From: an uncultured Bacteroidota bacterium
GTDB lineage: Bacteria; Bacteroidota; Bacteroidia; Chitinophagales; Chitinophagaceae
Direction: 5' to 3'
DNA: 64,000 bases
Assembly (NCBI GenBank): GCA_903819975.1
Contig: CAIJFI010000007.1
Span: forward strand, 62,001 to 126,000
A program made the translations under genes and the position numbers. Shown here one piece after another: positions 16,136 through 36,147 of the stretch. Numbering within the stretch: position 1 is the first letter of the stretch; every line of letters begins with the position of its first letter. Under the pieces are notes generated by a model. The model saw nothing but the letters and a program-made list of their open reading frames with translations, ran no database searches and was not told where the DNA came from.

Positions 16136-16144
16136 AAATTCTTT

Positions 16145-17428: not shown

Positions 17429-17453
17429 AATGGGATAATTTACAAAAAACTAA

Positions 17454-17472: not shown

Positions 17473-17483
17473 ACTCGTTTTTG

Positions 17484-17491: not shown

Positions 17492-17564
17492 CGCCATATT
17501 AAAAGAGTTGCCTTGACTATCCATTACAAATGACAGAAAATTAACAAAAATCTAAAAAAAATAA

Positions 17565-17579
17565 GGCCAATTTAAGGCC
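17565..17579 (-). terminator. Weak hairpin with T-run after the barrel fragment
   Basis: GGCC / GGCC stem around 7 nt, followed on the minus strand by a T-rich tract (TTATTTTTTTTAGA). Probably the original terminator of the outer-membrane protein whose 3' end survives at 17591. Confidence 0.35.
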
Positions 17580-18185: not shown

Positions 18186-18213
18186 TATTTGTATATTAGT
18201 ACAAAGAGATTTT

Positions 18214-20181: not shown

Positions 20182-20229
20182 ACTTTATTCTGCTCCCTCT
20201 TCTGAACTTGAACTAAGAAATGACAAAAA

Positions 20230-20442
20230 CCTCACGCAAACCTCACCCAAAAACAACAAAGGACCCACGATTTAACGTAAGTCCTTGATTTTCATGTAGC
20301 GAGACCGGGATTTGAACCCGGGACCTCAGGGTTATGAAGATTTTTTGAGAAAATGAAAGCGTTGATTTGTAATGCGTTATATTTTGACAAAACGGAAAAC
20401 GACCGATTTTAACCGATTTCAGGGGGTGTTTTCCTCACGCAG
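20230..20442 (-). repeat. att unit A3 (complete)
   Basis: In order on the plus strand: CCTCACGCA (20230) and CCTCACCCA (20241); the 28-bp tRNA terminator hairpin (20259-20286); linker GATTTTCATG; the 42-bp tRNA-Met 3' fragment (20297-20338); the arm of about 104 bp, closing with GGTGTTTTCCTCACGCAG. The 80 bp from hairpin to anticodon loop equal 36036-36115. Divergence from the tRNA begins exactly where the 5' anticodon stem should start. Confidence 0.9.
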
Positions 20443-20473
20443 GGGATATTTCAAAAATTAAGTAAATAGATAA

Positions 20474-21265
20474 TTATTGTGTAACGTTTAAAATTAGCGA
20501 GTCAACACCAAAAGAGGTAAAAATGCCAAAGCCATTTTGAATATTCGTAACAGGGTTAGTAATGTTTAAAGAACTCGTGCCTGTTGATTTATATAATGCC
20601 GCATATTCTATGTTAGCTTTATATAAATAAACATGATGTAATCCATAATAAGAGAATGAGTTAAATGATAAAGAAGCTGTATTTTCTTGAGTTGGGGGTC
20701 TTGAAAATCTAGGTCTTTGATTGGCCGTATCACTACTAATAGAAACAAGTGAGGATTCCATACATTTAGCAGCTATGAAATAATAGCTTTGGTCATTGTT
20801 GGTCCAGGAGTATACAACAGGGCTAGGAAAAGTCATTCCAGGGGTAAATCTAGAGCCAAATTGAGGAATTGCAATCGATGTAGCACTTCCTGTAAAGCCA
20901 ATAGGCTTTGATGGCACAATAGTCTCTGCTGAAATTGGCATATTGTTATAAGTAAATGATAATTTATAATCATTCCCTTCTTTAACTATTTTAGTAGTGT
21001 CTTGATAAATGCCATTTCCTATTCCTTTTAAAGTGGTAGGTACATTATTTATGTAGACTATCACCGTTTGCCCATCAATATAAGTTGGGTTGGTTGCATC
21101 TTCATTTACAGAAACAGGGAGCGATAGTTTTACCGAAATTGGGCCTCCTGCAATTAAATAGGATTCCACAACAGGCATTTGCAAGGTTGAAATCACCCTT
21201 ACTTCATTTTTGGTACAAGCGGTGGCAAATATAGAAATCAATATTGTATATAAAATATTTTTCAT
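20474..21265 (-). CDS. DUF4249 domain lipoprotein
   Basis: 263 residues with lipobox ATAC (Cys17) followed by TKNEVRVIS, then beta-rich DUF4249 sequence (VESYLIAGGPISVKLS; PTYIDGQTVIVYINN) and the typical ending FGIFTSFGVDSLIL. Shorter than the 387-residue paralogue at 1400 but complete at both ends. It starts 9 bp after the TonB receptor gene; probable surface partner of that receptor. Confidence 0.85.
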   Translation of the reverse strand: MKNILYTILISIFATACTKNEVRVISTLQMPVVESYLIAGGPISVKLSLPVSVNEDATNPTYIDGQTVIVYINNVPTTLKGIGNGIYQDTTKIVKEGNDYKLSFTYNNMPISAETIVPSKPIGFTGSATSIAIPQFGSRFTPGMTFPSPVVYSWTNNDQSYYFIAAKCMESSLVSISSDTANQRPRFSRPPTQENTASLSFNSFSYYGLHHVYLYKANIEYAALYKSTGTSSLNITNPVTNIQNGFGIFTSFGVDSLILNVTQ

Positions 21266-21274
21266 TGTTAATTG

Positions 21275-24010
21275 CTATTTGAATTTATAGGTAAATGTTA
21301 CATTTGGGGTGATTCCTAAATAATTTTTAGTGGTTTCCACTATGTAACTACTTTGAGAAGAGAAAATCTTATACCATTCGTTCTTCCTGTTATACAAATT
21401 AAATACTGAAAAACTTATACTACCAGAACCATGATTTTCAAATTTAATATTATAAGTTGCTGCAACATCCATTCTATGATAATCAGCTAGTTTATTGGCA
21501 TTTTTATCAGATACTATAAAGAAAGTTCTTGTAGTTCCATCTGGTAAATTTTGTGCATAGCCCCCATCGATGGATGTATAGGGTTTACCGGAAGCATAAA
21601 TCCAAGTACTTGAAAAATCCCAATTATGCCATTTGTAAATACCCACAATTTTAAATTCGTTTCTTACATCATTGTCTGCATAATAGTCTCCAACTTTATA
21701 AGCAGGGTAATTATTAGTTACTTGTGCAATAGTATAAGCAATCCAGCCATTTAATTTTCCACTTTTCTTTTGTAATAAAAAATCAACACCTTTTGCTTTA
21801 CCAGTTCCTTGCACATAAGTTTCCACTGGAGTTAAAGTGTTGGTTCTTTCAGGCCCGCCAAATTGCCTATTAATTCTCAATGAATACTCACTCATTCCAT
21901 ATAAATTTTTATTATATGCTTCTACGTCAAATAAGTAGTCTTTATTTTCATAGCTTCCTCCCAAACTCACTTGGTCATTATAGGCAACTGGAAGTTTATC
22001 TCCATCGGATAGAACCCAAAAATCCCTACTGCCTTGTTGAATATCTTCACGTATTACTCTTTTTATGAACTGATAATTTCTTCCAACGGATCCTTTAAGC
22101 AAAATTTTGTCAGTTAAATTAAAAGTGGCGTTAACACGGGGTTCGGTATAATATTGATGTGTAGGTTCAAAATAATTAAACCTGCCCCCAATAGTCATTT
22201 TAAACAACCCATATATTTCAATTTTATCCTGTATATACCCTGCAAGCAAATTTCCATTGGTGTGTCTATCTATAATGGTAGAGGTATCATTTTGAGCATA
22301 TTTATAGCTAACATCAAAATGATTTACCTGTCCACCAAATTCTAATTTATTTAATTCATTGAATTTGTATTCAAAATCTGATTTGACAGAATAATCTAAC
22401 AACTCATTGTTTTCAAAAGTTCCAGTTTTAAAATTAATAGTGGAGTCGTTTCTTATAATTGTTCCTCCATTACTTAAGTTTCGTTCACTGTAATAATTAG
22501 AAAAACTTGCTAAAGTATTTGAATAAAGTTTGGGCGTCCATCTTCTTGACCATTTTGCACTTGCACCAGTATTTCCCCAAGTAGTTAAATCGGAATTATC
22601 AAAACTTAAATTAACGCCAGTATTATTGAAATTGGAAGGGGGGTTAATCTTGGTTGAATTATCTAAATCATCACTTCCGCTAAAATAACTAAATGAGATA
22701 ATGTCTTTTTTATTGGGTCTATAGGTATATTTTGCATTAAGATCATAAAAATAAGAAGCCAATTGTGAGCTGTTAGAAGCTCTAAATCTTCTAAAACCAC
22801 CACCGCCAGCAGGACTAGCTGCAGCAGGATTAAATTGCTTAAAAATCATATCATACAATGGTCCCTTATAGCTTCTTCGTCCAGCAACAAACAATGTTGA
22901 TTTATCATTGAGTGGAGTTTCCACAAAACCATTCACACTCATCATACTAACATCTCCTCCAAAGTTTAACCCTTTGGTAGATCCTTCTTTACCAGTAAAT
23001 TCGGCAACACTACTTAATCTGCCACCATATTTTGCATCAAACGCCCCCTTGTACAATTGGACGTCTTTGATAGCATTAGAATTAAAGGCACTAAAAAAAC
23101 CAAACAGATGATCAACATTATACACTGTGAAACCATCATACATTACTAAAGACTGATCTGGTGTACCTCCACGAACATATAAGCCAGCAGAATTTTCGTT
23201 GGCAGCACTTACACCAGGCATTAATTGTAACGCTCTTAAAATATCTTTCTCCCCCAAATTTGGCAATACATTTAATTTTGCAGGGGTGAGTTTTATTACA
23301 CCCACTTTATCATTTGCTTTTAGAATATTGGGGATTTTAGAAAATACAACCACTTCACTTTGATACATTTGAGGTTGTTCCAATTCAAAAATCATATTAT
23401 TCACCTGCGACTTTGGTGTAAGAAAGTAATCGATTGGTTCGTAACCAACATAACTGATAGTTAGCTTAACAGTATCATTGGGGACATTTGTGATGGTAAA
23501 CAAACCATCCACATTGGAAGTAATGCTTGTTTTTGAAACCGCAATTTTAATATTTGCATAGGGTAAACTTTCCCCAGTTCTTTTATCAATTATTTTACCT
23601 GTTAGCGTGAAATTATTTTTTTCAGGTGCTCCTTTGTATTCTCTTACCGCTTGTTGACTTACAGTAACATTAATTAACTTAGGATCCACATCTTTAAATT
23701 TATCAATTAGATAAATAGTGCCCACATTGTTAATGATATATTTAGATTTCGTGAGATTGCATATTTTTTTAAGTGCATCTGAAAGTTTTAAATCTTCAAT
23801 ATCTAATTGTTGCGGTTCTAAAGCTGAAAATTTTACAGTGTCGTAATTAAATTTTAAATCGTACTTGTTGCTAATTTTTATAATCAAATCGGAAACAGTT
23901 CCAAAATGTATAACAGATATATTTTTTCTTAAGACCGAGTCTATTTTGTTTTGCCCATAACCTGTGACACTTATAACTGCAAACAAAAAAAAGAGAAATT
24001 TTTTTAACAT
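21275..24010 (-). CDS. TonB-dependent receptor with STN and CarboxypepD_reg-like domains
   Basis: 911 residues: signal peptide, STN-like domain (about 30-110; SDLIIKISNKYDLKFNYD), carboxypeptidase-D-like domain (about 130-220; GKIIDKRTGESLPYANIKIA), plug (LGEKDILRALQLMPGVSA; LYVRGGTPDQSLVMYDG), then the barrel ending VTFTYKFK. The STN domain normally allows signalling through an anti-sigma factor, but no FecR/FecI pair is nearby. Same architecture as the receptor at 2568. Ligand unknown. Confidence 0.9.
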   Translation of the reverse strand: MLKKFLFFLFAVISVTGYGQNKIDSVLRKNISVIHFGTVSDLIIKISNKYDLKFNYDTVKFSALEPQQLDIEDLKLSDALKKICNLTKSKYIINNVGTIYLIDKFKDVDPKLINVTVSQQAVREYKGAPEKNNFTLTGKIIDKRTGESLPYANIKIAVSKTSITSNVDGLFTITNVPNDTVKLTISYVGYEPIDYFLTPKSQVNNMIFELEQPQMYQSEVVVFSKIPNILKANDKVGVIKLTPAKLNVLPNLGEKDILRALQLMPGVSAANENSAGLYVRGGTPDQSLVMYDGFTVYNVDHLFGFFSAFNSNAIKDVQLYKGAFDAKYGGRLSSVAEFTGKEGSTKGLNFGGDVSMMSVNGFVETPLNDKSTLFVAGRRSYKGPLYDMIFKQFNPAAASPAGGGGFRRFRASNSSQLASYFYDLNAKYTYRPNKKDIISFSYFSGSDDLDNSTKINPPSNFNNTGVNLSFDNSDLTTWGNTGASAKWSRRWTPKLYSNTLASFSNYYSERNLSNGGTIIRNDSTINFKTGTFENNELLDYSVKSDFEYKFNELNKLEFGGQVNHFDVSYKYAQNDTSTIIDRHTNGNLLAGYIQDKIEIYGLFKMTIGGRFNYFEPTHQYYTEPRVNATFNLTDKILLKGSVGRNYQFIKRVIREDIQQGSRDFWVLSDGDKLPVAYNDQVSLGGSYENKDYLFDVEAYNKNLYGMSEYSLRINRQFGGPERTNTLTPVETYVQGTGKAKGVDFLLQKKSGKLNGWIAYTIAQVTNNYPAYKVGDYYADNDVRNEFKIVGIYKWHNWDFSSTWIYASGKPYTSIDGGYAQNLPDGTTRTFFIVSDKNANKLADYHRMDVAATYNIKFENHGSGSISFSVFNLYNRKNEWYKIFSSQSSYIVETTKNYLGITPNVTFTYKFK

Positions 24011-24023
24011 TAATTTTTTTGTG

Positions 24024-24031
24024 CAAAACTA
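24024..24031 (-). promoter_or_regulatory. -7 box TAGTTTTG upstream of TonB receptor
   Basis: Matches TAnnTTTG on the minus strand, 14 bp before the receptor ATG. No -33 partner seen. The rest of 24011-24224 is AT-rich and shows nothing else. Confidence 0.45.
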
Positions 24032-24224
24032 GTCAAGATTGAATACTATATATAATAATCTTAACATAAAATATTGTTAAGCTAGATTGACCTTAATAAT
24101 AACTTACAAAATACTTAAATTAAACTGAATAAGAGTTATTACAAATAGCTTCTCTAAAAACACATTAAACCCATTGTAGGTTTTTAGGTCAAATAATATA
24201 CCCTAAAAAACTCAAAAGGTATTT

Positions 24225-25115
24225 ATGATTCAAACCTACCGAGAAAGACCTATCTCTGAAAATGCTAAATTTTCAATCATAATACCAAGTTGGAATAATC
24301 TAGAATATTTAAAAATTTGTGTTCAAAGCATTCGGAAAAATTCCAGCTATAATCATCAAATTATAGTACATGTAAATTCAGGAATAGATGGTACACTAGA
24401 ATGGATTGAATTACAACCCGATATCAATTATACTTATAGCTATGAAAATATTGGCGTTTGCTACGCCATAAATTGCGCTAGGAGTATGGTTAAAACAGAT
24501 TATATTGTATACGTTAATGATGATATGTATTTATGTCCAGAATGGGATAAATTTTTGTTAGATGAAATTTCAAAAATTGGACATCAAAAGTTTTTTTTAT
24601 CATCAACTGTTATCGAACCTGTAGCATCAAGTAGTTGTGCTATTGAAAAAAATTTTGGAACTAGTTTTAAAGATTTTAATGAAGATGCCTTATTAAAAGA
24701 ATTCAAGCATTTCAAATTTAATGATTGGGCGGGTGCCACTTGGCCTCCCAATTTGTTACCTACAAAATTGTGGGACGCAGTGGGTGGATACAGTATTGAG
24801 TTTTCGCCAGGCATGTATTCAGATCCAGATTTTTCAAATAAATTATGGAAAGCCGGTGTTAGGTATTTTAAAGGAGTTAGTGCGAGCCGAGCTTATCATT
24901 TTGGATCAAAATCTGTCAAAAGAGCAAAATTAAACAAAGGCTATTATCAATTTATTAATAAATGGGGATATACATCAAGTTTTTTAACTAAAAATATACT
25001 CCATAGGGGGGAAATTTTTAACGGACCAGTTTCTAATTTAATCATCCCATACAATATCAGAATTAAACAATTTTTTAAACGAATTATTTCTTCCTTTAAA
25101 AAGTTAGAAATTTAA
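24225..25115 (+). CDS. Glycosyltransferase family 2
   Basis: 296 residues, GT-A fold: FSIIIPSWNNLEYLKICVQS, HVNSGIDGTLEW, and the DXD-like motif VNDD (97-100) for metal-nucleotide-sugar binding. A later WAGATWPPNLLPTKLWDAVG segment and GMYSDPDFSNKLWKAGVRYF are typical of the acceptor half. No transmembrane segments, so cytoplasmic. It stands alone between a divergent TonB gene and a fossil att boundary. Sugar and acceptor cannot be predicted. Confidence 0.85.
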   Translation: MIQTYRERPISENAKFSIIIPSWNNLEYLKICVQSIRKNSSYNHQIIVHVNSGIDGTLEWIELQPDINYTYSYENIGVCYAINCARSMVKTDYIVYVNDDMYLCPEWDKFLLDEISKIGHQKFFLSSTVIEPVASSSCAIEKNFGTSFKDFNEDALLKEFKHFKFNDWAGATWPPNLLPTKLWDAVGGYSIEFSPGMYSDPDFSNKLWKAGVRYFKGVSASRAYHFGSKSVKRAKLNKGYYQFINKWGYTSSFLTKNILHRGEIFNGPVSNLIIPYNIRIKQFFKRIISSFKKLEI

Positions 25116-25147
25116 CTACAGTAGAAATTTCAGAATTTAGATTTAGT

Positions 25148-25180
25148 GTTTTCGGAAAGAAAAGACAAAAACCTCGTGCA
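25148..25180. repeat. Probable fossil att boundary
   Basis: GTTTTCGGAAAGAAAAGACA followed by AAAACCTCGTGCAG resembles the left flank of att unit A3 (GACAAAAACCTCACGCA) and the stretch at about 27030-27050 (GGTTTTTGGAAAGAAAA). The tRNA part is absent. It suggests that the GT2 cassette and the MgtC-ParB-DUF4337 cassette were once separate. Confidence 0.4.
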
Positions 25181-25273
25181 GAATTAATTAAGAAGTCTTT
25201 ATTACCTTCATTAGAAATTATTTAGTAAATTATGATTTCAAAAGTGCTTATCATTCAATTTAAAACAAACATT

Positions 25274-25903
25274 ATGAATAATGAATTAATAATTCGTTTT
25301 GCATTAGCAATTCTATGGGGTGGTATTGTTGGAGCTGAAAGACAATATCGTAGTAAATCTGCTGGTTTTAGAACAATGATAATGATATCATTAGGTGCAT
25401 GTTTTTTTACTATTATATCCAAAATTATAGGTGGAGAATTAAATGGTGACAGAATTGCCTCGAATATTGTTTCCGGAATTGGTTTTATTGGAGCTGGGGT
25501 AATTTTTAGAGGTGATAATAGAGTAAATGGTATTACAACTGCTGCAACCATATGGGTAGTCGCTGCTGTTGGAATGGGGATAGGTGCTGGCTACTATTTT
25601 GCAGCGTCATGTAGTAGTATTTTAATGATCTTAATTTTAGCAATCCTTCCATATATAGAAAGATTTATTGATGAACTCAATCAATCAAAAGAATATTCAA
25701 TTGTAACATTATATAATAAAGAGTCCATTCATCAAATTGAATCTTTATTTAAAGAAAATGATGTAAAATATAGACTAATTAGAATAAATAAAATTGGTGA
25801 TAAGGTTGATTTTCAATGGGAAATTCAAGCACATAAAAAAAGACATGAAAGATTATCACAATTGCTTATGAATGATGGAAAAATATTAGAATTAAAAAAT
25901 TAA
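25274..25903 (+). CDS. MgtC/SapB family membrane protein
   Basis: 209 residues from the ATG at 25274, chosen because the family motif starts directly there (NNELIIRFALAILWGGIVGA, ERQYRSKSAGFRT). An in-frame ATG at 25232 would add 14 residues without similarity. Four or five transmembrane helices include GIGFIGAGVIFRGDN and GITTAATIWVVAAVGMGIGAG, followed by a cytoplasmic ACT-like C-terminal domain. MgtC proteins modulate Mg-related physiology and F-ATPase in pathogens; the role here is unknown. Five base pairs before the ParB-like gene. Confidence 0.85.
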   Translation: MNNELIIRFALAILWGGIVGAERQYRSKSAGFRTMIMISLGACFFTIISKIIGGELNGDRIASNIVSGIGFIGAGVIFRGDNRVNGITTAATIWVVAAVGMGIGAGYYFAASCSSILMILILAILPYIERFIDELNQSKEYSIVTLYNKESIHQIESLFKENDVKYRLIRINKIGDKVDFQWEIQAHKKRHERLSQLLMNDGKILELKN

Positions 25904-25907
25904 TTCT

Positions 25908-26261
25908 ATGAAAAATCTATGGTTAAAAAACCCCGAAAAACATGACTTCCCTGCTGCAAACGACTTTCTTGAATTATTATTTTCAACAACCAAAGCAAAA
26001 GGTTTTGTTGATAATTTAAAAGAAGCAAATACAGTAAATAAGAAAGCTAAGGATATTTTAAGAGCAAGTGAAATGCAATTGTTACCCAAAAATAATATTC
26101 ACGTAAAAGAAAATATCAAAAAATCAAAAGATGGCATAATGCTATCACCTATCTTACTTGTGAGATCTGAAAATAAATTAATAATTGCGGATGGTTATCA
26201 TAGATTGTGTGCCATATATTATTTATCCGAAGATTTAGAAGTCCCTTGCAGAATCGTATAA
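25908..26261 (+). CDS. ParB-like (Srx-fold) domain protein
   Basis: 117 residues. The C-terminal half has LSPILLVRSENKLIIADGYH followed by RLCAIYYLSEDLEVPCRIV, the ParB/sulfiredoxin-like nucleotide-binding signature. The N-terminal half is charged and helical. Too short to be a chromosome-partitioning ParB: it lacks the HTH and dimer domains. It follows mgtC by 5 bp, so the pair is probably co-transcribed. Function unknown. Confidence 0.6.
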   Translation: MKNLWLKNPEKHDFPAANDFLELLFSTTKAKGFVDNLKEANTVNKKAKDILRASEMQLLPKNNIHVKENIKKSKDGIMLSPILLVRSENKLIIADGYHRLCAIYYLSEDLEVPCRIV

Positions 26262-26421
26262 TAGGATAATTAGTGTAAATTAAAAAGGCATTCAAAGTAA
26301 TCAAAACTATTTTAGTATACCTTATTTCCTTTTGAATGAATATGCTGTTGTAATAACAAATGATTAAAAGTATTTGTATTTTTAATTACCGCACAAAATA
26401 TGCAATTAAAAAATAAAGAAC

Positions 26422-26946
26422 ATGGATGAAATAGAAGTACCTACCGAACACCTACATGAAACAATTCATGAGCAAGTTCATAATGCAAGTAATATCAAAG
26501 AGCAAAAATGGTCAATGCTTGTTGCTATATCTACTGCACTAATGGCAGTACTAGCAGCAATATCAAGTTTATTTGCTGGACACAATTCAAACGAAGCAGT
26601 TATTAATCAGATCAAAGCTTCAGATCAATGGGCTTTATACCAAGCAAAAGGTATTAAAGCTGAAATTAAAGCAATTAAAATTGGGAACATCCCTTTGGAT
26701 ACTGTGGAATATAATAGATATAAAAAGGAGCAATCAACTATTAAAGAAAAAGCGGAAGAACTGCAAAATGAATCTAATTCACATTTAGAAATTGAAAAGA
26801 AGTTTGCAAAAGCGGTTACGTTTTTTCAAATTGCAATTGCTATTTCTGCTATTTCTATTTTAACGAAACGAAAATTCCTTTGGATAATTAGTTTATTTAT
26901 AGGTGCTTCTGGCTTATTATTTTTGATACAGGGAATTGATTTTTAG
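26422..26946 (+). CDS. DUF4337 membrane protein
   Basis: 174 residues. Acidic/His N-terminus (PTEHLHETIHEQVHNA), one transmembrane helix at about 33-55 (VAISTALMAVLAAISSLFAG), the family segment SDQWALYQAKGIKAEIKA, a coiled-coil, then two helices at the C-terminus. DUF4337 is an uncharacterised inner-membrane family. The gap 26262-26421 before it shows no feature. Confidence 0.8.
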   Translation: MDEIEVPTEHLHETIHEQVHNASNIKEQKWSMLVAISTALMAVLAAISSLFAGHNSNEAVINQIKASDQWALYQAKGIKAEIKAIKIGNIPLDTVEYNRYKKEQSTIKEKAEELQNESNSHLEIEKKFAKAVTFFQIAIAISAISILTKRKFLWIISLFIGASGLLFLIQGIDF

Positions 26947-27076
26947 AGTTTAAATTTCAAATTCTAAAAAATATAGTCTAATCGCCATCGACCCTAAAAT
27001 CATGACCACTATTGAAGTTGCTGCTATGAATGTGAGGGTTTTTGGAAAGAAAAAAAATTGATTAAAATAAAATCAA

Positions 27077-27302
27077 TCTCACGCAAAAACCTCACGCAAA
27101 CCTCACGCAGAAACAACAAAGGACCCACGATTTAACGTAAGTCCTTGATTTTCATGTAGCGAGACCGGGATTTGAACCCGGGACCTCAGGGTTATGAAGA
27201 TTTTTTGAAAAAATGAGAGCGTTGATTTGTAATGGGTTATGTTTTGACAAAACCGAAAACGACCGATTTGGACCTAATTGAGGGGGTGTTTTCCTCACGC
27301 AG
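27077..27302 (-). repeat. att unit A4 (complete)
   Basis: TCTCACGCA, CCTCACGCA, CCTCACGCA at 27077, 27090 and 27101; hairpin 27119-27146; tRNA-Met fragment 27157-27198; arm 27199-27302 with CCTCACGCA at 27293. The arm differs from A3 by scattered substitutions, including ones that destroy any shared reading frame, so it behaves as a non-coding conserved element. The gene-free stretch 27303-27474 after it shows nothing else. Confidence 0.9.
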
Positions 27303-27474
27303 GGTGTTTATAATATAAATGATTGATATATAGCTTACCTTTTAAAAGTAAATCATACACTCTATTGCAATTCTAACGCAACAGCTCTATTTACAATTCT
27401 TGTAATCACTATCATTCCTAAGACTCTTATTAAATCATTGAGATAGGCAATACCCTATTTCCAAACCAACACGT

Positions 27475-27978
27475 ATGAAAAAATTCGTTTTATTCTTCAT
27501 TACAACGATATCATTGATGTCTTGTGATACAAAATCAAATGGACATAATGTTCCATCTAATGCTACTGGTTATACCATCGATAGTTCAGCTAATACTGTC
27601 TTAGTTATAAAAGCATCAAATGCATTAATAAATAACGATACAACTGCTTATAAAAGTTGTTATAGCAGTGACGCAATATTTCACGATAATAATGATTCTG
27701 CAAATTTAACCCAAAATGTAGCAGGGATTCAAGCAATGCACGATAAAGGGATTGTTTGGAAGCTAAATAAAATTGGTGCTATTTGGGAGACCGTGGATCT
27801 AAATCCAAAGGCTAATGAAAATACTAGTTATGTAATTTCATACCAAAACTATACGCTTACTAAAGGAGATAAAAGCATTGTTGTTAGATTCAACGTACTT
27901 AATAATATAAAAGATGGTAAACTAATGTCTGAATATTTAAGATATGATAACTCAGGTATTGCAGAATTGATGAAATAA
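27475..27978 (+). CDS. NTF2-like/SnoaL-type lipoprotein
   Basis: 167 residues with lipoprotein signal (SLMSC, Cys17). The body matches the cone-shaped NTF2-like fold: a helix with ASNALINNDTTAYKSCYSSD, the AIFHDN strand, and the sheet-forming segments VISYQNYTLTKGDKSIVVRF and LMSEYLRYD. Members range from ketosteroid isomerases to non-enzymatic binding proteins; no catalytic set can be named. It is the only gene of a cassette of about 1 kb and ends in its own terminator. Confidence 0.65.
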   Translation: MKKFVLFFITTISLMSCDTKSNGHNVPSNATGYTIDSSANTVLVIKASNALINNDTTAYKSCYSSDAIFHDNNDSANLTQNVAGIQAMHDKGIVWKLNKIGAIWETVDLNPKANENTSYVISYQNYTLTKGDKSIVVRFNVLNNIKDGKLMSEYLRYDNSGIAELMK

Positions 27979-28001
27979 TTTTGAGTTTGAAAAATTCGAC
28001 T

Positions 28002-28032
28002 GAGACCTCTAGCAATAGGGGTCTCTTTTTTT
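28002..28032 (+). terminator. Rho-independent terminator of the NTF2-like gene
   Basis: Stem GAGACC / GGTCTC extended by imperfect pairs around a short loop, followed by T7. It lies 24 bp after the stop and inside the cassette, before the next att unit. Confidence 0.85.
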
Positions 28033-28126
28033 AAAAAAAGAATGAAATGTGATAGTCAAGAATATATAAGTTTTTTTAATTTGGGAACTAAGTTTCTAAT
28101 ATTTTATGACGTAAATAATTTGAGGG

Positions 28127-28330
28127 GGTGTTTTCATCACAGAACAAAGGACCCACGATTAAACGTAAGTCCTTGATTTTCATGTAGCGAGACCGGGATT
28201 TGAACCCGGGACCTCAGGGTTATGAAGATTTTTTGAGAAAATGAAAGCGTTGATTTGTAATGTGTTATGTTTTGACAAAACCGAAAACAACCGATTACAG
28301 TCGAATTCAGGGGGTGTTTTCCTCACGCAG
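28127..28330 (-). repeat. att unit A5
   Basis: Left flank GAGGGGGTGTTTTCATCAC lacks the tandem CCTCACGCA motifs and instead looks like the end of an arm, as at 7140 and 36012. Hairpin 28147-28174 has one base change in the loop. tRNA-Met fragment 28185-28226. Arm 28227-28330 ends GGTGTTTTCCTCACGCAG. The gene-free part 28331-28446 is AT-rich with no further signal. Confidence 0.88.
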
Positions 28331-28446
28331 AGGTTTATTAATTATTATAATAGAAAAAATAGGTATTTTAAAAATTTAAAATTGCTATTTTTAAATACTG
28401 GCGAATTGAAGGGAAACAATTATTAAAGCTAATTAAAATCAAAACC

Positions 28447-28983
28447 ATGATTAATAAAACAAATATCATTAATGCACTAAATGATTCTACAGATCAATTT
28501 AATGAATTGATTTCTAAATTAACCAATGATCAATTTGAGATAAATATTAATAACAAGTGGTCGGCAGGACAAGATTTAGTTCATTTAATTAAAGTACTCC
28601 ATATTGTAAATATTGGGTTTACATTACCTAAACTGGTATTACAATTATTGTACGGTATCAATAAAAATGAAATTAGACCCTTTAATGAGCTTCAAACTAT
28701 ATATAAGAACGCTTTAGAAGGTGGTGCAAAAACGCCTAGTATATATATTCCAAAACCAGTATTATTTAAAGAAAAAGTCAATTTGATAAAAAAGCATCAA
28801 TCTTTGAATGAAAGTCTAATTAATAAAATTAATAATCATTCTGAAAAGGAGTTAACTAGTTTTAGATTACCTCATCCAATTTTAGGGAAAGTTACCTTAG
28901 CTGAACTTGCCTTCTTCACCTCCTTCCATACGGCTCATCACATTGAATTATTAAAAACAAAATTGAATTATTCTCTTAATTAA
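28447..28983 (+). CDS. DinB-like (DinB_2) four-helix protein
   Basis: 178 residues, all-helical, with the metal-site pattern of DinB/YfiT-like proteins: KWSAGQDLVHL in helix 2 and FHTAHHIELL in the last helix, giving three candidate His ligands. The family includes thiol transferases and hydrolases with a bound metal as well as many members of unknown role. Cytoplasmic. Sole gene of a cassette of about 0.9 kb. Confidence 0.75.
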   Translation: MINKTNIINALNDSTDQFNELISKLTNDQFEININNKWSAGQDLVHLIKVLHIVNIGFTLPKLVLQLLYGINKNEIRPFNELQTIYKNALEGGAKTPSIYIPKPVLFKEKVNLIKKHQSLNESLINKINNHSEKELTSFRLPHPILGKVTLAELAFFTSFHTAHHIELLKTKLNYSLN

Positions 28984-29041
28984 TAGGCCTAATGAAATTT
29001 CTAAACTTGGATTTTGTTTATAAAACACAATTCTAATAATT

Positions 29042-29234
29042 CCTCACGCAAACCTCACGCAGAAACAACAAAGGACCCACGATTTAACGTAAGTCCTTGA
29101 TTTTCATGTAGCGAGACCGGGATTTGAACCCGGGACCTCAGGGTTATGAAGATTTTTTGAGAAAATGAAGGTGTTGAATTGTATTTAGTTGCATTTTGAT
29201 AAAACCGAATTCAGGAGGTGCTTTCCTCACGCAG
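29042..29234 (-). repeat. att unit A6 (arm shortened)
   Basis: CCTCACGCA at 29042 and 29053; hairpin 29071-29098; tRNA-Met fragment 29109-29150; arm 29151-29234, about 20 bp shorter than in other units through internal deletion but still ending CTTTCCTCACGCAG. The stop codon of the next gene begins at 29240, only 6 bp beyond. Confidence 0.88.
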
Positions 29235-29237
29235 AGG

Positions 29238-31454
29238 TTAAAATTCAAATACCCATCTTGCTTTTATAAAAAATGGAGTTCCAGGAGTAAAATGAATTTC
29301 TTCGACAGTAGCAATTTCATTTTTTAGTTTGCTTTCGGTTAAAAACTGAGTCTCTTTCCATTTAACATTAAAGATATTTTCTGCTGTTAATCCAATACTT
29401 GTTTTATGTGTAAGCTTATAGTTAATGTTAGCATCAAAAACATTATAACCATATGCCTTGACTGAGTTATCCTCATTAGCAGGCCTATCTCCTAAAATTC
29501 TATATCTGAAACCCCATTTAATTTTATTGCCATTGTAATTTAACCCTCCTGTACTACTAAAGACGGGAGCTAATGGTAAATACTGAAATCCAACAGGATT
29601 ATCAATTGAGCGGCCAATGGTATAGTTTGCATCAACATCTGCAAAAAAGTTTTTCACTATCTCATACCTCATTGACAATTCAAATCCTCTTCTAAAAGTT
29701 CTTCCTCCTGGTTCAACCACAGACTCGTCACCAACATAAATAAATTCTTGATCCAGTTTTAATGCCCATAATGCTGCATTGATTATTAAGTTATCAATTG
29801 GCTTGGTTATAACCCCAAAGTCAGCCCCCCAAGCAACTGGCAAAATTTGTCTTCCATTTTCAGGAACCACTACACGAATATCATTGCTATGAAACCCTTT
29901 TCCAATTTTTAGATACAAAGAGGTCGTATTATTTAATTGATATTGCATATTTAATTTCGGACTCAAAATCCCTTTGCTTAAAGATTTATAAGGTATCTTA
30001 TTTAACAGATCATTGTATCCAAAAACTAAATCCTCCAATCTTAGCGCAGCATTTAAAGTCCAACGATTAATTATATAAGTTTCACTTATATAAGTGGCAA
30101 TATTTAACTCATTACCTATACCATTAGATAAAGGAGCAGTAACAATATCTCTATTCAAAGTTCTTGATAATTCTAAATGATTGATATCGTCATATCTTAC
30201 GCTTCCTCCTATTTTTAACTGTAAAGAAGCACCGTTACTAAAATATTCATCTTTGATATAGTATCCGTTATATCCAATAATGTTCCTTGCTTCCTTTTGT
30301 CTTATTTGATCCCCATTAATTGGGTCGAATTTATAAAATGTAAAATTGCTATACAATTCAAAATTGTACTTTGTGAAGTAAAATTGATTTTCTAATGTCG
30401 CATCATTAGGTAATATTGAACTTGATTTAACACTCAAATTAGTTTTTGAAGTTTGTCCACCTTCATTATTATCAATGGCACCAAACCAGCCAATAGACCC
30501 ATCTTTGACAGCTCTTTCAGGTATTTGTCCTGAAGCATTCCATTTACTCAAAAATGTTGAAAATTGAGTAGTAAAAAGGGTTTTGCCCTTCAGAATCTGA
30601 TATTTACTAGTAAAATTATATCGTTTAAATTTCTGCGGTGAATCAAATGGGCCATCAGTATGATAAACCTCAAGACCAACATATGCATTCTCGGATTGTT
30701 TTTGTGGCAATAAATTAAATAATCCAACTGTTCTAATGGTGTTAAACATGCCGCCTTCCACTTTAATCAAATTATTTGGAAGTTTGTCAAATGTTTGAAG
30801 CGACACATAACCCGCTGTTGTAAAATCACCTTTGTCTGCATAATAAGTCCCTTTGCCAAAATCAATTTCTTTGATCGTTTCAGGAATCACAAAATGTAAA
30901 TCGGCATATCCTTGACCATGTGCATGACTAACCATATTTACAGGAAGTCCATCCACAGAAACATTAACATCTGTTCCATGATCCACATCAAATCCTCTTA
31001 AAAATAATTGTTCTGCTTTACCTCCACCTGCATGTTGACCAATAAATAAACCAGGCACCAATCTTAAAACCTCTTGAGAATTATTTAAAGGTCTTATGGA
31101 TAAATCTACTCTATGAATATTACTCAATAATTTAATTCCTAATTTAGAGTTTACCTCAATGTCTTTTAAAGAAGTTGTCGATGGAGTCATTAATATGGTA
31201 GGGATATCATTTATGCTATTGACAACATAAATCATACTTCCATAGCCCAAAGAACGAAGTTTCAGCGTATCACCAACTGAGGCTCTTATTTTAAAGAACC
31301 CATCCTTATCGGAAAGCGCAGTTGATTTATTAGAAAAGACTGTTGCACCATCAATAGGCACGAATTTTTCTTGATCTTTAATTTGGCCAATAAAGAGCTG
31401 AGCATTGACAATAAAAGGTAAAAATAATATAGAAATGAAAGCAATAATTCTCAT
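29238..31454 (-). CDS. TonB-dependent receptor (HAHGQGYAD subfamily)
   Basis: 738 residues: signal peptide, short carboxypeptidase-D-like domain (about 20-90), plug with the subfamily hallmarks QHAGGGKAEQLFLRGFDVDH and DGLPVNMVSHAHGQGYADLH, then a barrel ending FIKARWVFEF. The His-rich plug loop is a candidate ligand site. It follows the PepSY gene on the same strand, separated by an inverted repeat. The 3' end touches att unit A6. Ligand not certain; a metal or metal complex is plausible. Confidence 0.88.
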   Translation of the reverse strand: MRIIAFISILFLPFIVNAQLFIGQIKDQEKFVPIDGATVFSNKSTALSDKDGFFKIRASVGDTLKLRSLGYGSMIYVVNSINDIPTILMTPSTTSLKDIEVNSKLGIKLLSNIHRVDLSIRPLNNSQEVLRLVPGLFIGQHAGGGKAEQLFLRGFDVDHGTDVNVSVDGLPVNMVSHAHGQGYADLHFVIPETIKEIDFGKGTYYADKGDFTTAGYVSLQTFDKLPNNLIKVEGGMFNTIRTVGLFNLLPQKQSENAYVGLEVYHTDGPFDSPQKFKRYNFTSKYQILKGKTLFTTQFSTFLSKWNASGQIPERAVKDGSIGWFGAIDNNEGGQTSKTNLSVKSSSILPNDATLENQFYFTKYNFELYSNFTFYKFDPINGDQIRQKEARNIIGYNGYYIKDEYFSNGASLQLKIGGSVRYDDINHLELSRTLNRDIVTAPLSNGIGNELNIATYISETYIINRWTLNAALRLEDLVFGYNDLLNKIPYKSLSKGILSPKLNMQYQLNNTTSLYLKIGKGFHSNDIRVVVPENGRQILPVAWGADFGVITKPIDNLIINAALWALKLDQEFIYVGDESVVEPGGRTFRRGFELSMRYEIVKNFFADVDANYTIGRSIDNPVGFQYLPLAPVFSSTGGLNYNGNKIKWGFRYRILGDRPANEDNSVKAYGYNVFDANINYKLTHKTSIGLTAENIFNVKWKETQFLTESKLKNEIATVEEIHFTPGTPFFIKARWVFEF

Positions 31455-31514: not shown

Positions 31515-31529
31515 GTGTATAATATAAAA

Positions 31530-33116
31530 CTATTTCTTTTTTCTTGATTTAAAATACACCATAAAGCCAACGACTACTAACATGATTTGAGCCATGGCCC
31601 AGAACATAGTGCTAAAATCCCTCCACTCCTTTCCTGCAAAATCCATAAAATGGTGTTTATGAAAGAAATTAAAAATCATAGCCGCATTGTAGTCATGATC
31701 GTCTACCCTAACGGATAACTTTCCACTCGTAGTTTCAATATAAAATCGTTCATTTTGATTTTTTGCATAAGCCACTTTCCAAACTGGCAGACGTTTATTT
31801 ACAAAACCATATTCCCCTTCAAATTTTGTAATAACCGAGTCTGCTATTACATCATTATCGCTATTCCCACTAAAGGTATTTGCTAAGTAATGTGCATACT
31901 TTTGATCCCCATCTTTTAGAATTATGTAATTTGATGTATTGATATAAGCAATTTGCGGCTTTGGCACTTTCATCTCTTTCATCAAATCCTTAGGTTTTTT
32001 ATCTCCGCCTTTAGATCCAGATGCTTTCTTTATTGACACTTGATAGTATTGATTACTATCCATAGTTACCAAAGATATATTTGTGACAGATTTATTAGCA
32101 TATTTAGTTATGCTATCTATATTAAAATGTGTACTTGCAGTTTGATAGACTGCTTTATCAAAAAACTGATCTCTAGTATCTTTATCAAATTTAGTTGTTG
32201 CTTGATAAAATCCGCTAAAACTAAACATTAAGGTGAATAACGAAATGGAAGCCGAGGTATAACGATGTTTTCTTCTTGCAGCTACCAATTCGTTTCCTTT
32301 TACATTTTTGGATTTGGTGGTAAAAAAGATATACAAGCCCATAATACTTGTTATAAAGGCAAGCCCAACTAATAATAATTCAATATAAATACGGCCTACT
32401 CCTAAAAAGCTAAGCCACTCCCAAGTATGAATCACAACAAAGATTCGAGAAAATAATGCTCGCCTATTATCTACCGCAAAAGCAAAACGATCTTGACCTG
32501 TTTCCACATAGACTCTTATGCCATCTTCTCTTTTAAATTCTACTTTATAAACTGGAAGCACCCTGTTTATATTTTTATACTCATCATCAAAAGATGTTAG
32601 TTTCTGAACATCTGTAACTATTGCTCCTTTTTTAGGCTTTAAAACACATACAGTGGCAGCGTCACAACAATCAGCAACTGGAGTTTCTACAATTGGAGCA
32701 GTAGCTATAGCATCTTGTTTTGAACTGTCTTTTTTTGATTCTCCTTCTAAAAAATACCTGGCTAAATATTGGGCATAAATCCAATCCCCTTTTTTTAATA
32801 GTTTCCCGTTTTTAACACTTAAGTATACTAATTCATTTTTGCCAATAAGTTGAACTTGATAGAACCAATTGGTATCAATATGGATTAATCTTACATTTTT
32901 AAAAGAATCAATCTTGTTAATAGATAATGCATTTTCTAATGTTATTTTCTCATAACTACTGTCTATGGCTTTCGCACTTAGAAACTGAGTGGCAACCTTA
33001 GGTCTAAAACTAGACATAATAGGATGCAAAAAACCACTAGCCGCCCATAAAACCACCGGTATTGCAATTACAATTGAAATGATGCGATGCCATTTGTATA
33101 TGTTTTTCTTGATCAT
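31530..33116 (-). CDS. PepSY-domain membrane protein, possible metal or siderophore reductase
   Basis: 528 residues. PepSY-associated transmembrane architecture: TM1 (RIISIVIAIPVVLWAASGFL), two periplasmic PepSY-type halves (about 40-230 and 320-470), central TMs (about 235-265 and 290-310) and a last TM (MAQIMLVVVGFMVYF). Histidines in TM contexts (HTWEW, HKHHFMDF) could bind haem as in PepSY-type ferric reductases. An unusual Cys-rich insert VADCCDAATVCVLKPK occurs near residue 150. It lies between two TonB receptors in one operon, so reduction or transfer of the imported metal is a reasonable inference. Confidence 0.8.
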   Translation of the reverse strand: MIKKNIYKWHRIISIVIAIPVVLWAASGFLHPIMSSFRPKVATQFLSAKAIDSSYEKITLENALSINKIDSFKNVRLIHIDTNWFYQVQLIGKNELVYLSVKNGKLLKKGDWIYAQYLARYFLEGESKKDSSKQDAIATAPIVETPVADCCDAATVCVLKPKKGAIVTDVQKLTSFDDEYKNINRVLPVYKVEFKREDGIRVYVETGQDRFAFAVDNRRALFSRIFVVIHTWEWLSFLGVGRIYIELLLVGLAFITSIMGLYIFFTTKSKNVKGNELVAARRKHRYTSASISLFTLMFSFSGFYQATTKFDKDTRDQFFDKAVYQTASTHFNIDSITKYANKSVTNISLVTMDSNQYYQVSIKKASGSKGGDKKPKDLMKEMKVPKPQIAYINTSNYIILKDGDQKYAHYLANTFSGNSDNDVIADSVITKFEGEYGFVNKRLPVWKVAYAKNQNERFYIETTSGKLSVRVDDHDYNAAMIFNFFHKHHFMDFAGKEWRDFSTMFWAMAQIMLVVVGFMVYFKSRKKK

Positions 33117-33133
33117 AATCTTTTATGTTTACT

Positions 33134-35416
33134 TTATTTTCCGAATTTATATGACAAGCCCAAAGTGATTTCTCTTGGGTCTCCCATATTGTAAGTTCTA
33201 TTATTCACTCCAACAGCAGTTCCTGGGGCAGAAGTTGCACTAACAGCATAATATTCATTCAAGGCGTTCAAAGCATTAACCCACACCTCAGCTTTACCTA
33301 TTTTATAGGAAACTCTAAAATTCGCAATGTCATAACCGCCGTATGTGTATTTATTTAAATCATCCATGAAGTATTTGTCTTGATGTTGCCATTCTGCACT
33401 TACTAATAAACCTTTTATAAATTCAGGTTTATACACTATTTCTGCATTGGCAATGAACTTAGGGGCTCCATTAATTTCTTTCCCATTATAATTTACTCCT
33501 TTTACAATATTATTAATGTATTTGTGTTTAGCATTTGTTCCACTAAATCTAAAATACCACTCTGTATTTGGCTTATAATTAATGCCGTATTCAATTCCCA
33601 TATGTTCTGTCGAACCAGCATTTTGGTTTTGAGAACTACCATCTGGCAATTTCACAGATATAATTTCATTGGTTCCTTGTAAATTATAGATACTCCAATC
33701 TGCATACAATTTATTTCCCCCTATGGCAACCCATCCACCAATTTCATAATTCTTGAAGGTTTGAGGATCTAAATAAGGGACTAATACTGAATTAAATAAC
33801 TCCGTAATCTGAGGAGGCACATAGCCCTCGCTATAATTACTATACAAACCAATCCCTTTGTAGTTATAGGTAAATCCTAATTTTGGAGTTACTCTTTCAA
33901 ATGTTCTTACGCTTGAAGGGGCGCCAGATTTTAATGCATTCTTAAAGTCATAATTAAACGCGTCATAACGAATTGCAGCAACTGCTTTAAATCCTTTAAA
34001 AGGACTAATCTCATAATCTAAGTAAACAGCCGTATTTCTAATATCAGTAGTATAATTACTCAACAATGAATCCGGTGTCTTTTGCGTATAGCTAACATAT
34101 TTGTTGGATACTGTATCCTTTTTAATGGAAATAAATTTAGCATAATAGGTTTGAGGACTAAAGTCCAAAGAGGCACCTGCTATTAATTTTCCATTTAACC
34201 AATCAAACTTTTGAGTATGTTGCGCAATTATTGAATTTGTTTTAAAGGAGTTGTCATTGATTTGTCCATTAAATAAAGTTTTATTGGTGGTGGAAGCTAT
34301 TGAATAAGAAGGGTTTTGTTTTATAGAATTGTCTCTATATAAAAACGAAATGCTTGTATTGCTTTTTTTACTCCATTGTTGAGATAATATTGATTTATAC
34401 CTCAAAGCATACACGCTTCTAAATGTAAAGGTTTGCAAAGAGCTAAAATTCTTTTGAAAATATTTTAAACTATCTAAGGCTCCAGTCATATCGCTATAGT
34501 AATCAATGTATGCTAAAGTGTTTGTCCAAGTTAATTTTTCATTGGCTTTATAATCTGTTCTTAATGAAATAGATGTTTTATTAAAATCACTATGTTCTAC
34601 TGGGCCATCTTTTCTTTTAGCATAATATCCACTTGCTAAAACACCCCATTTACCAATAGTAGTTCCTATCTGGCCATCCGCTCTTTGGTAGCCAGTATTG
34701 TTAAATTGGGCACTTACATTTCCTCCCGTATAAGCAGGTGCAGACTGTGTAATGATATTCACTGCGCCACCTATTGCCTCCCCTCCATATAATGCAGATG
34801 ATGGCCCTTTTACCACTTCAATGCTTTTCGCAGCTGGCAAATTCATTTCCAATAAGGCATTGTGATTGTATACACCCGTTGTTCTAATTGGAATGCCATC
34901 TTCCATATATAGGAAAAGGCTTCTTGTAGTCATTGGCTGGCGAATACTCATTTGATGTTGCTCATTGCCCAAATTCACCATATAAACACCACTCACTTTA
35001 TTCAGTACCGCATCAATTCTTTGTGCTTTTGCATCTTCAATTGTTTGTTTGCTAATGGTAGTAATTGCAATTGGGGCTTCGCTTCTTTTTTCATTTGTTT
35101 TATTTGCAGTAACCACCACCTGGTCTAAAATATTTTGGGAAGGATTTAATGCTATCGCTAAATTTTCGGACGAAATCGAGATAGATTTAGGCTCATACCC
35201 TACTGCAGTAACCGTTATTTTCGTTTCATTTGTTGTTATAGAAAAACTACCGTTTTCTTTGGTGGTAATTTTGTTCTTAGCATCTGCAATAACAGCACCT
35301 TGTATTGCTTCCTTTGTGAATGCATCATACACTTTTCCTGAAATATTTTTTCCTTGTTGAGAAATAGCAACATTACTAATAAGAATACATAATATATATA
35401 AGATCGATTTTTTCAT
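33134..35416 (-). CDS. TonB-dependent siderophore/metal-type receptor
   Basis: 760 residues: signal peptide (VAISQQ), carboxypeptidase-D-like domain (GKVYDAFTKEAIQGAVIADA), TonB-box-like region, plug (DQVVVTANKTNEKRSEAPIA; VKGPSSALYGGEAIGGAVNI) and a barrel ending ITLGLSYKFGK. The plug resembles siderophore and copper-type receptors more than SusC. First receptor of the TonB-PepSY-TonB operon, 17 bp before the PepSY gene. Confidence 0.88.
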   Translation of the reverse strand: MKKSILYILCILISNVAISQQGKNISGKVYDAFTKEAIQGAVIADAKNKITTKENGSFSITTNETKITVTAVGYEPKSISISSENLAIALNPSQNILDQVVVTANKTNEKRSEAPIAITTISKQTIEDAKAQRIDAVLNKVSGVYMVNLGNEQHQMSIRQPMTTRSLFLYMEDGIPIRTTGVYNHNALLEMNLPAAKSIEVVKGPSSALYGGEAIGGAVNIITQSAPAYTGGNVSAQFNNTGYQRADGQIGTTIGKWGVLASGYYAKRKDGPVEHSDFNKTSISLRTDYKANEKLTWTNTLAYIDYYSDMTGALDSLKYFQKNFSSLQTFTFRSVYALRYKSILSQQWSKKSNTSISFLYRDNSIKQNPSYSIASTTNKTLFNGQINDNSFKTNSIIAQHTQKFDWLNGKLIAGASLDFSPQTYYAKFISIKKDTVSNKYVSYTQKTPDSLLSNYTTDIRNTAVYLDYEISPFKGFKAVAAIRYDAFNYDFKNALKSGAPSSVRTFERVTPKLGFTYNYKGIGLYSNYSEGYVPPQITELFNSVLVPYLDPQTFKNYEIGGWVAIGGNKLYADWSIYNLQGTNEIISVKLPDGSSQNQNAGSTEHMGIEYGINYKPNTEWYFRFSGTNAKHKYINNIVKGVNYNGKEINGAPKFIANAEIVYKPEFIKGLLVSAEWQHQDKYFMDDLNKYTYGGYDIANFRVSYKIGKAEVWVNALNALNEYYAVSATSAPGTAVGVNNRTYNMGDPREITLGLSYKFGK

Positions 35417-35518
35417 TCCGATTTAGATTTAAATAATAAGATAGCCCTATACGCAAGTGACCCTAGTAATGCATAATTGCACTAAGGACATTGGTTAGGG
35501 AATAAGATAAAAGATAAA

Positions 35519-35944
35519 CTAAGCTCCTGGAGGATGGAATATTGAACCTAAATAGTTTGATGAAAATTCATCATTATAGGTGTAAAAAGAAGTTATGTCA
35601 TGAGTTGAGATAACATTAAGAGAAGGAAAAAAAGATTTTGAAGACAACACTACTTCAATATGATTGAATTTAAGCGCAGGTGCATTTGTACCATTGCTGC
35701 CTTCCTGCTTTTTCATTTTTTTAAGCATCTGACACTTACCATTACAATGCAGCATGGGTTTAGCCTTGTTCACACAATTCTTCTTATAGGTCTCTAAATT
35801 AACTAAATAATCAGCCATTGCTAAAGACCTTGAAAAGGTCTGAGCAATGAGTGCTGTGAATAATAATATGACTATCGTGTATTTCAAATCATCGCAAAGG
35901 TAATTAGAAATATTGCTACAATTTATAATCTTAATCATATTCAA
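35519..35944 (-). CDS. Cys-containing membrane-anchored or secreted protein, metal-related candidate
   Basis: 141 residues. A hydrophobic stretch at about 22-40 (YTIVILLFTALIAQTF) is followed by a segment rich in conserved-looking residues: KKNCVNKAKPMLHCNGKCQM, i.e. C-x8-C-x3-C, then KKMKKQEG and a C-terminus with HPPGA. No named family is assigned. It precedes the TonB-PepSY-TonB genes by 102 bp on the same strand, so a role in handling the same metal is inferred. Alternative ATG at 35938. Confidence 0.6.
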   Translation of the reverse strand: MNMIKIINCSNISNYLCDDLKYTIVILLFTALIAQTFSRSLAMADYLVNLETYKKNCVNKAKPMLHCNGKCQMLKKMKKQEGSNGTNAPALKFNHIEVVLSSKSFFPSLNVISTHDITSFYTYNDEFSSNYLGSIFHPPGA

Positions 35945-35967
35945 ATCGATTATTAAAAGTTTAATTT

Positions 35968-36063
35968 CCTCACGCAGTAAAACCCAATGATAGCATGTGT
36001 TTCAAGATAAAAAGTGATGTTTTCCTCACACAACAAAGGACCCACGATTTAACGTAAGTCCTT
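35968..36063 (-). terminator. tRNA-Met terminator and its CCTCAC flank
   Basis: 36036-36063 is the 11-bp-stem hairpin (loop TTAAAT, two G-T pairs) that follows the tRNA by 10 bp on the minus strand and is copied in the array. Beyond it lie CCTCACACA (36024-36032) and CCTCACGCA (35968-35976), the same motifs found at the att units. This is the right end of the last cassette. Confidence 0.8.
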
Positions 36064-36073
36064 GATTTTCATG

Positions 36074-36147
36074 TAGCGAGACCGGGATTTGAACCCGGGA
36101 CCTCAGGGTTATGAATCCTGTGCTCTAACCAACTGAGCTACCTCGCC
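36074..36147 (-). tRNA. tRNA-Met (CAU), elongator type
   Basis: A complete cloverleaf: acceptor GGCGAGG with TCTCGCT (G-T at 1-72 and 7-66), D arm GCTCAGTTGGTTAGAGC, anticodon loop TTCATAA with CAT anticodon, T arm CCGGGTTCAAATCCCGG, discriminator A73. CCA is not encoded. GTAGCTCAGTTGGTTAGAGC matches the elongator tRNA-Met pattern, not the initiator. A tRNA-Ile with lysidine cannot be fully excluded. It is the only intact copy; seven partial 3' copies or remnants lie to its left and derive from its 3' half. Confidence 0.93.

Follow-up and report, generated by a model that had tools for sequence, protein, structure and literature searches.

Two one-gene intervals in the 64,000-nucleotide stretch of DNA analysed here (the window; bases 62001-126000 of contig 7 in a genome of 2.3 Mb and 18 contigs, G000) are probably separate mobile cassettes. 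Comparison of their sequences with those of related genomes suggests that both, referred to as cassettes A and B, are CIME-like satellites without an integrase, arrayed in tandem at the tRNA-Met 3' end and served by an integrase acting in trans. Dozens of related freshwater genomes contain identical types of unit and cassette.

A tandem array of tRNA-derived repeats ends at tRNA-Met

ARAGORN identified a single tRNA gene in the window, a tRNA-Met (CAT) (Table 1). A 43-nt core, corresponding to this tRNA from the anticodon loop to the 3' end, is present in seven exact copies starting at 8060, 10898, 20296, 27156, 28184, 29108, and 36073, which is far beyond chance. The seventh is the 3' half of the intact gene, and the array ends there. 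As in integrative elements, a tRNA 3' repeat marks each boundary of the array, with an intact tRNA at one end.

Most cores are surrounded by a unit of approximately 220 bp, composed in order of direct repeats of CCTCACGCA, a hairpin, the core, approximately 100 conserved bases, and a last CCTCACGCA. We named the hairpin side of the unit the left arm and the opposite side the right arm. The hairpin is conserved and oriented to terminate the tRNA-Met transcript. A left arm, core, and right arm in this order is the layout expected of the attP of a lambda-type integrase, or of the joint between tandem elements.

Cargo differs from interval to interval in the window, and none is duplicated along the array. 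The array also shows decay, in the form of core-less junctions, a fused 6.9-kb segment, and a split FG-GAP gene, and four right arms without cores lie to the left of the window. A block at 20253-25183 is 91.9% identical to one that forms a single intact cassette adjoining tRNA-Met in a relative (G048); the block common to both ends close to a possible integrase-tail ghost.

Table 1. Features of the tRNA-Met array in the window.
Feature	Position	Strand	Basis
FG-GAP cassette; gene split by a stop in the window	8103-10940	+	92.7% to G139
Junction with divergent left arm	10782-10940	+	Second class of right arm to its right
RND efflux block	11548-17577		Array in G050, 99.3% over 6,032 bp
Junction unit at core 20296	20201-20458	+	Arm comparison
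Composite cassette	20339-27198		Alignment to G048
Possible second integrase-tail ghost at a lost junction (weak)	25085-25168	+	E 0.34
Remnant, last ~20 codons of relatives' integrase	26987-27046	+	55% over 20 aa, E 2.4e-4; directly before left arm
Junction unit before cassette A: left arm, hairpin, core 27156-27198, right arm	27058-27319	+	Repeat and arm comparison
Cassette A, 1,028 bp	27199-28226	+	Core boundaries
Cassette A gene: lipoprotein, 167 aa, predicted NTF2-like fold	27475-27978	+	ORF, predicted structure
Terminator-like hairpin of cassette A	28002-28025	+	3' of NTF2-fold gene
Junction unit A/B: atypical left arm, core 28184-28226, right arm	28109-28344	+	Arm comparison
Cassette B, 924 bp	28227-29150	+	Core boundaries
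Cassette B gene: DinB_2 protein, 178 aa	28447-28983	+	ORF, Pfam
Junction unit after cassette B: left arm, core 29108-29150, right arm	28995-29253	+	Arm comparison
tRNA-proximal cassette: 738-aa ORF, PepSY_TM, TonB receptor, 141 aa	29151-36115		Pfam, alignment
tRNA-Met (CAT), intact, attachment target	36073-36147	-	ARAGORN; 3' half 36073-36115 = core

At 10941-11010, after an identical core, we observed a second class of right arm, which also occurs at L061:14132 and in L063, L067, L138, and L142, hinting at a second integrase lineage that uses the tRNA-Met site. A 226-bp stretch is duplicated (94%) at 7293-7518 and 8221-8446, in neighbouring genes flanking a core; the first of these genes is Kinase-PolyVal.

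A degraded C-terminal piece of an unrelated integrase was found at 17697-18182, with 73% identity to an intact integrase in the same genome (G000:C4:328335). Neither was retained as driver of the array: the intact protein had no match above 35% identity to the tRNA-Met family, and no CCTCACGCA occurs within the surrounding 18 kb. Immediately after the piece comes an FRG-domain protein with a match to the candidate defence family PDC-S15 (17697-18657 in all), and a protein at 18921-19292 matches GyrI-like and also Cass2, an integron-associated effector-binding family.

Cassettes A and B carry one gene each

The preliminary description had placed two intervals of about 1.0 and 0.9 kb between units, each with one gene and both genes in the same direction, and both the lengths measured between cores and the clear plus-strand ORFs agree with it (Table 1). 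The product of cassette A matched no Pfam family at E<=0.001, while its structural model (mean pLDDT 80) matched NTF2/SnoaL-like folds (best E 8e-7), consistent with the NTF2-like lipoprotein proposed earlier. The DinB-like protein of cassette B was confirmed as DinB_2 (Pfam, E 1.4e-8), and the terminator ascribed to the first gene corresponds to a terminator-like hairpin.

No integrase or recombinase was found inside A or B, nor any integration or transfer gene of their own, and none of their sequence matched phage-derived packaging, capsid, or hijacking genes. An autonomous tRNA-integrating element with its own tyrosine integrase was rejected for both. In holding one gene each and no such functions they are like CIMEs, and, as attL and attR of a related integrase element would be, their arms and core are the same as those of integrase elements in G166 and G105. 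The earlier statement that integrase and phage genes are missing stands for A and B themselves, but not for the neighbouring interval, 20339-27198, which holds an integrase-tail remnant. The left arm of cassette A (28109-28187) contains no exact CCTCACGCA repeat, so its left end may be impaired.

Integrase elements in relatives share the arms and core of the cassettes

We searched 15 array-bearing relatives for Phage_integrase domains, and several matches lay within a few hundred bases of units. In three relatives (G048, G044, and G030), the integrase gene, int, is immediately followed by a left arm, core, and tRNA-Met, and the genes past the tRNA can be aligned with their counterparts past the tRNA-Met of the window. 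An intact integrase element at a tRNA-Met locus had been suggested as a check, and elements with the same left arm and core lie directly at a tRNA-Met, called by ARAGORN, in G044, G048, G030, G166, G051, and G105; those in G172, G019, and G120 adjoin a left arm and core. The ARAGORN check covered the 11 close integrases described below other than those of G123, G172, and G019.

Using the G044 protein (P0001) as query, we detected a close homologue (>=65% identity, whether as one piece or several) in 11 of 147 genomes of the genus (G044, G172, G051, G048, G123, G105, G166, G019, G139, G030, and G120), and more distant relatives at 41-47% identity in others. The same search detected no cognate integrase in the genome of the window.

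The integrase scored 25.5 bits against a Pfam cut-off of 27.1. The HxxR box of tyrosine recombinases usually has a His, and this residue was not conserved in the alignment of these integrases. Because the structural model was weak (pTM 0.40), we used only the ranking of folds, in which lambda integrase was the best match (E 5.7e-10). At the N terminus, C18, C21, C28, and H30 are invariant (residues 18-30 of P0001), possibly forming a zinc-binding arm domain. Arm-DNA-bind_5 (PF17293) was tried as a marker and set aside; it matched 25 of 61 genomes, but not the integrases at tRNA-Met.

A 126-aa ORF precedes int in the integrase elements, and those of G166 and G105 also encode a second tyrosine recombinase of 189 aa. 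Replication-initiator-like proteins were matched in the G166 and G044 elements and restriction-modification genes in some (G139 and G105), while no relaxase, conjugation, or virion family matched in the subset of element ORFs tested. Carriage by a phage or plasmid was rejected: the integrase had no match in phage, plasmid, or viral-contig collections, the cassettes had none in phages and plasmids, and the junction pattern was absent from viral contigs.

The elements of G166 and G105 have a right arm at the far end and a left arm with core at the tRNA, the same as in the cassettes. In G105, a complete integrase element of 23.3 kb runs from right arm to core at tRNA-Met, and cassette arrays lie on other contigs. 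A single contig of G120 carries, in order, the integrase, left arm, core, right arm, a gene of 122 aa, left arm, core, and the 5' half of tRNA-Met; its one-gene cassette, between integrase element and tRNA, measures 807 bp. In G048, two loci (L071 and L072, on C58 and C47) share the same tRNA-Met and 5' flank and continue into a cassette array and an integrase element, respectively; they may represent two genotypes at this locus.

The last codons of int were recognized near the left arm of integrase-less cassettes at 13 distinct places (E<0.01, overlapping rows merged), one of which is 26987-27046 in the window. Because many of them keep these codons, the integrase-less cassettes resemble cis-mobilizable elements accreted in tandem, and deletion of an integrase element down to its ends appears, from such traces, to be their likely origin.

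Cassettes are widespread and mostly lack an integrase

We catalogued 61 distinct right-arm-to-core segments, 52 of them without a leftover right arm inside. Forty-two of those 52 are bounded by cores on both sides (median 2.8 kb); among the 42, lengths do not exceed 1.1 kb in 6 and 2 kb in 16, and just one ORF of 80 aa or more is present in 17. The integrase of the elements at tRNA-Met was present in 2 of the 61. The catalogue covers the loci that were fetched rather than all genomes, leaves out L001-L051 (overlapping short stretches) and loci fetched later, and was freed of duplicates with a 200-nt key.

Of the 147 genomes of the genus, 55 had a detectable right arm (43 at E<=1e-20), and 7 of those 43 also had the close integrase, many of the assemblies being fragments. 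The number of matches in any one genome is a minimum, since only a few candidates were scored in each (8, 6, or 2 depending on the search), and most relatives are fragmented metagenome bins whose contigs often end at repeats. In 396 genomes drawn from the order, 8 had right-arm matches: G000 and G047 within the genus, G398 and G385 in other genera of the family, G457 and G318 in other families, and, marginally, G423 and G242. In G398 and G457, a cassette ends at tRNA-Met. As in additive islands, variable cassettes lie at a tRNA gene and are marked by repeats of part of the tRNA.

Among 79 units with a right arm we counted 22 core variants, 4 of which correspond to the 3' half of an intact tRNA-Met seen in the set, and single contigs of G014 contain cores of two types. 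One 122-aa gene family, which matched no Pfam entry, is found repeatedly as cargo (L059, L060, L262, L263, and L266; G014, G120, G105, and G113).

Ectopic insertions point to a 7-bp exchange site

In 93 of 95 distinct right arms with a readable start, the arm follows immediately on TTATGAA, which is complementary to the seven-base anticodon loop of tRNA-Met. Cassettes were also found at ectopic sites, where the insertion shares as little as this 7-bp sequence with the unit (about 7 to 22 bp), and all four right flanks examined begin with NCCTG, like the tRNA. The two flanks of L106 together form a hairpin, CGCTGACAGGG-TTATGAA-CCCTGTCAGCG; the left flank of L127 shares only TTTATGAA with the unit, and one left junction in L125 is shifted by a base. 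No tRNA gene was found in the stretches of L106, L125, and L127. In the genome of the window, contig 13 carries an ectopic cassette; the only tRNA gene detected there by ARAGORN is a tRNA-Glu at a distance of 9 kb. L052 (G000:C13:45796-50888), at an ectopic site in this genome, is a three-gene cassette with ORFs of 120, 636, and 771 aa, which we take to be BlaI/BlaR-like.

Such insertions would be expected of a tyrosine integrase whose overlap is 7 bp and whose core site is an inverted repeat. The pattern of junctions fits site-specific recombination, and not slippage or ordinary homologous recombination.

Cassettes are more similar between genomes than their flanks

Cassette DNA is 89-99% identical between genomes, compared to mostly 72-83% for the chromosomal flanks, which could not be aligned in the case of one other genus. 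The RND efflux genes are 99.4% identical to G050 over 5,588 bp, with flanks at 72-79%. The TonB-glycosyltransferase cassette is 92.3% identical to G048, with flanks at 78.7% over 12.5 kb and 83-88% in the two best pieces; it stands first beside the tRNA in G048 and is internal in the window. For the FG-GAP cassette, identity to G139 is 93.2%, with flanks at 75.5%. A 4.6-kb stretch beside the tRNA-Met of the window (31523-36093) is 89.5% identical to a cassette at tRNA-Met in G398, which belongs to another genus, and no alignment of the flanks was found within 15 kb.

The preliminary description had also asked whether the two genes occur with att units in other strains, and both do, at least with remnants of units. 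The DinB gene is 97.0% identical at the DNA level to one in G020 (flank 80%, from 195 bp only), where it has different neighbours and arm remnants only, with no cores. The NTF2 gene is found in G152 (80.6%) with unit remnants nearby. It is also found in G154 (91% over 509 bp) with no recognized unit, so it can move or persist in other ways.

Alternative explanations

Cells that take up foreign DNA could have acquired and shuffled the cassettes by ordinary homologous recombination at the conserved 220-bp units, with the integrase having only founded the array. The units are long and similar enough for this, MAG contigs break at them, and most array-bearing genomes are without an integrase. We nevertheless consider this unlikely, as the ectopic sites have only about 7 to 22 bp in common with the unit, the homology of the FG-GAP cassette with G139 stops exactly at the core end (10940), and a cassette is shared with the tRNA-Met of another genus without homology in the flanks. 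Among cassettes already in arrays, homologous recombination between the 220-bp repeats could also cause shuffling. A fossil array, in which separate integrase elements decayed in place and the one-gene intervals are their last remains, never mobile as cassettes, appears quite unlikely. Near-identical integrase-less cassettes occupy other positions in other species, as with the TonB-glycosyltransferase cassette of G048 and the window, and integrase-less cassettes were found ectopically and, in G120, separating the tRNA from an integrase element. Such an array would nonetheless account for the integrase tails within cassettes, the fused and core-less junctions (for example, the four core-less right arms left of the window), and a genome without a cognate integrase.

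The preliminary description had set against its own proposal the case that both genes belong to one larger element that lost its integrase, with slippage producing the att units; we considered tandem duplication together with it. Units do repeat head to tail and one neighbouring interval is composite, but the cargo differs in every interval instead of being duplicated, the units differ in both arms, and core variants differ in relatives. Elsewhere the two genes are separate and have other neighbours (DinB in G020, NTF2 in G152), and ectopic sites that share as little as 7 bp with the unit need a site-specific recombinase. We regard this explanation as highly improbable.

Two known arrangements were also compared and rejected. 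An integron cassette array, which would have an integrase gene and attI at its head, does not fit, because the head of the array is tRNA-Met and no cognate integrase was detected in the genome; the junctions, too, derive from a tRNA. A Dehalococcoides-type ssrA island would have the serine recombinase DsiB at ssrA, whereas here a tyrosine integrase is found at tRNA-Met.

Discussion

We propose that A and B are integrase-less satellite cassettes, each made of a right arm, its gene or genes, a left arm, a terminator, and a tRNA 3' half. In a circular form, the joined ends of such a cassette would make a complete two-armed attP. The integrase of a resident or incoming element could then excise and insert cassettes in trans, with strand exchange probably taking place across the 7-bp anticodon loop, TTATGAA, so that each insertion would swap the tRNA 3' half and terminator for the copy brought by the cassette. 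Many cassettes may have begun as integrase elements that were deleted down to the last int codons and the arms, and later loss of cores would fuse cassettes and freeze them. Since no cognate integrase could be detected in the genome of the window, the array there is probably inactive, pending the arrival of an integrase element.

Arrangements of this kind are already known, and CIMEs, ssrA islands, and additive islands, as presented in the available excerpts of the literature, belong to it. CIMEs have lost integration and transfer genes, keep attL and attR, and accrete in tandem by their att sites at the 3' end of a gene (PMC5704250). The array described here is similar in its tandem integrase-less units that keep att arms; judged against that excerpted account, it differs in having units of down to one gene and 0.73 kb, many per lineage, in sharing cassettes between species, genera, and families, and in a helper integrase that is usually undetected in the same genome. 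Dehalococcoides ssrA islands, as excerpted, number more than 12 in tandem, are bounded by RNA-gene 3' repeats, and occur with or without an integration module consisting of a large and a small recombinase, and the authors suggest that they are CIMEs (PMC3146451). Those islands use a serine recombinase and tmRNA, whereas the cassettes here are associated with a tyrosine integrase and the anticodon loop of tRNA-Met, and also show, relative to what that excerpt describes, two arm regions, integrase tails in cassettes, and spread between genera and families.

Small cassettes with tRNA 3' repeats have been described at tRNA genes of streamlined aquatic bacteria as additive islands (Actinomarinales, PMC7771536; Methylopumilus, PMC10872708), those of Methylopumilus ranging upward from 330 bp and 1 CDS (PMC10872708). 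In the portions of these two reports available, neither the cognate integrase nor the full att site was identified, whereas both are found here together with ectopic insertions. Tycheposons carry tRNA-bordered cargo with a tyrosine recombinase in aquatic bacteria, with tRNA-Met among their sites, and measure 4-200 kbp (PMC10872708, in part). Compared to these large cargo carriers, the units here are mostly integrase-less and span 0.7-9 kb.

The array also invites comparison with integrons. In an integron, cassettes are arrayed at one docking site by an integrase encoded outside the cassette. The cassettes here are alike in being mostly promoter-bearing or single-gene, with one docking site and an integrase outside the cassette, but the array itself does not encode that integrase, half a tRNA with arms takes the place of attC, and the enzyme is lambda-like. 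We see an even chance that exchange is integron-like on a wider scale, with genera and families of freshwater Chitinophagales-like bacteria drawing on a shared pool of one- or few-gene cassettes with a two-armed attP, a lambda-type integrase supplied in trans by a minority of genomes, and tRNA-Met as docking platform.

We found no paper on this tRNA-Met cassette system in open-licence PubMed Central, and consider the new element to be the combination, in Bacteroidota-like lake bacteria, of a tyrosine integrase at tRNA-Met with integrase-less satellite cassettes, some of which hold a single gene. Islands of tRNA-associated cassettes have been reported from several aquatic bacteria, and in the available parts of those reports the enzyme that adds cassettes was not identified. 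Because arms, a 7-bp exchange site, an integrase, and satellites have now been identified in one group, mobilization of one-gene cassettes in trans is directly testable. If the proposal is correct, lake bacteria with small genomes would exchange transporters, efflux pumps, and lipoproteins nearly one gene at a time, with no integron involved.
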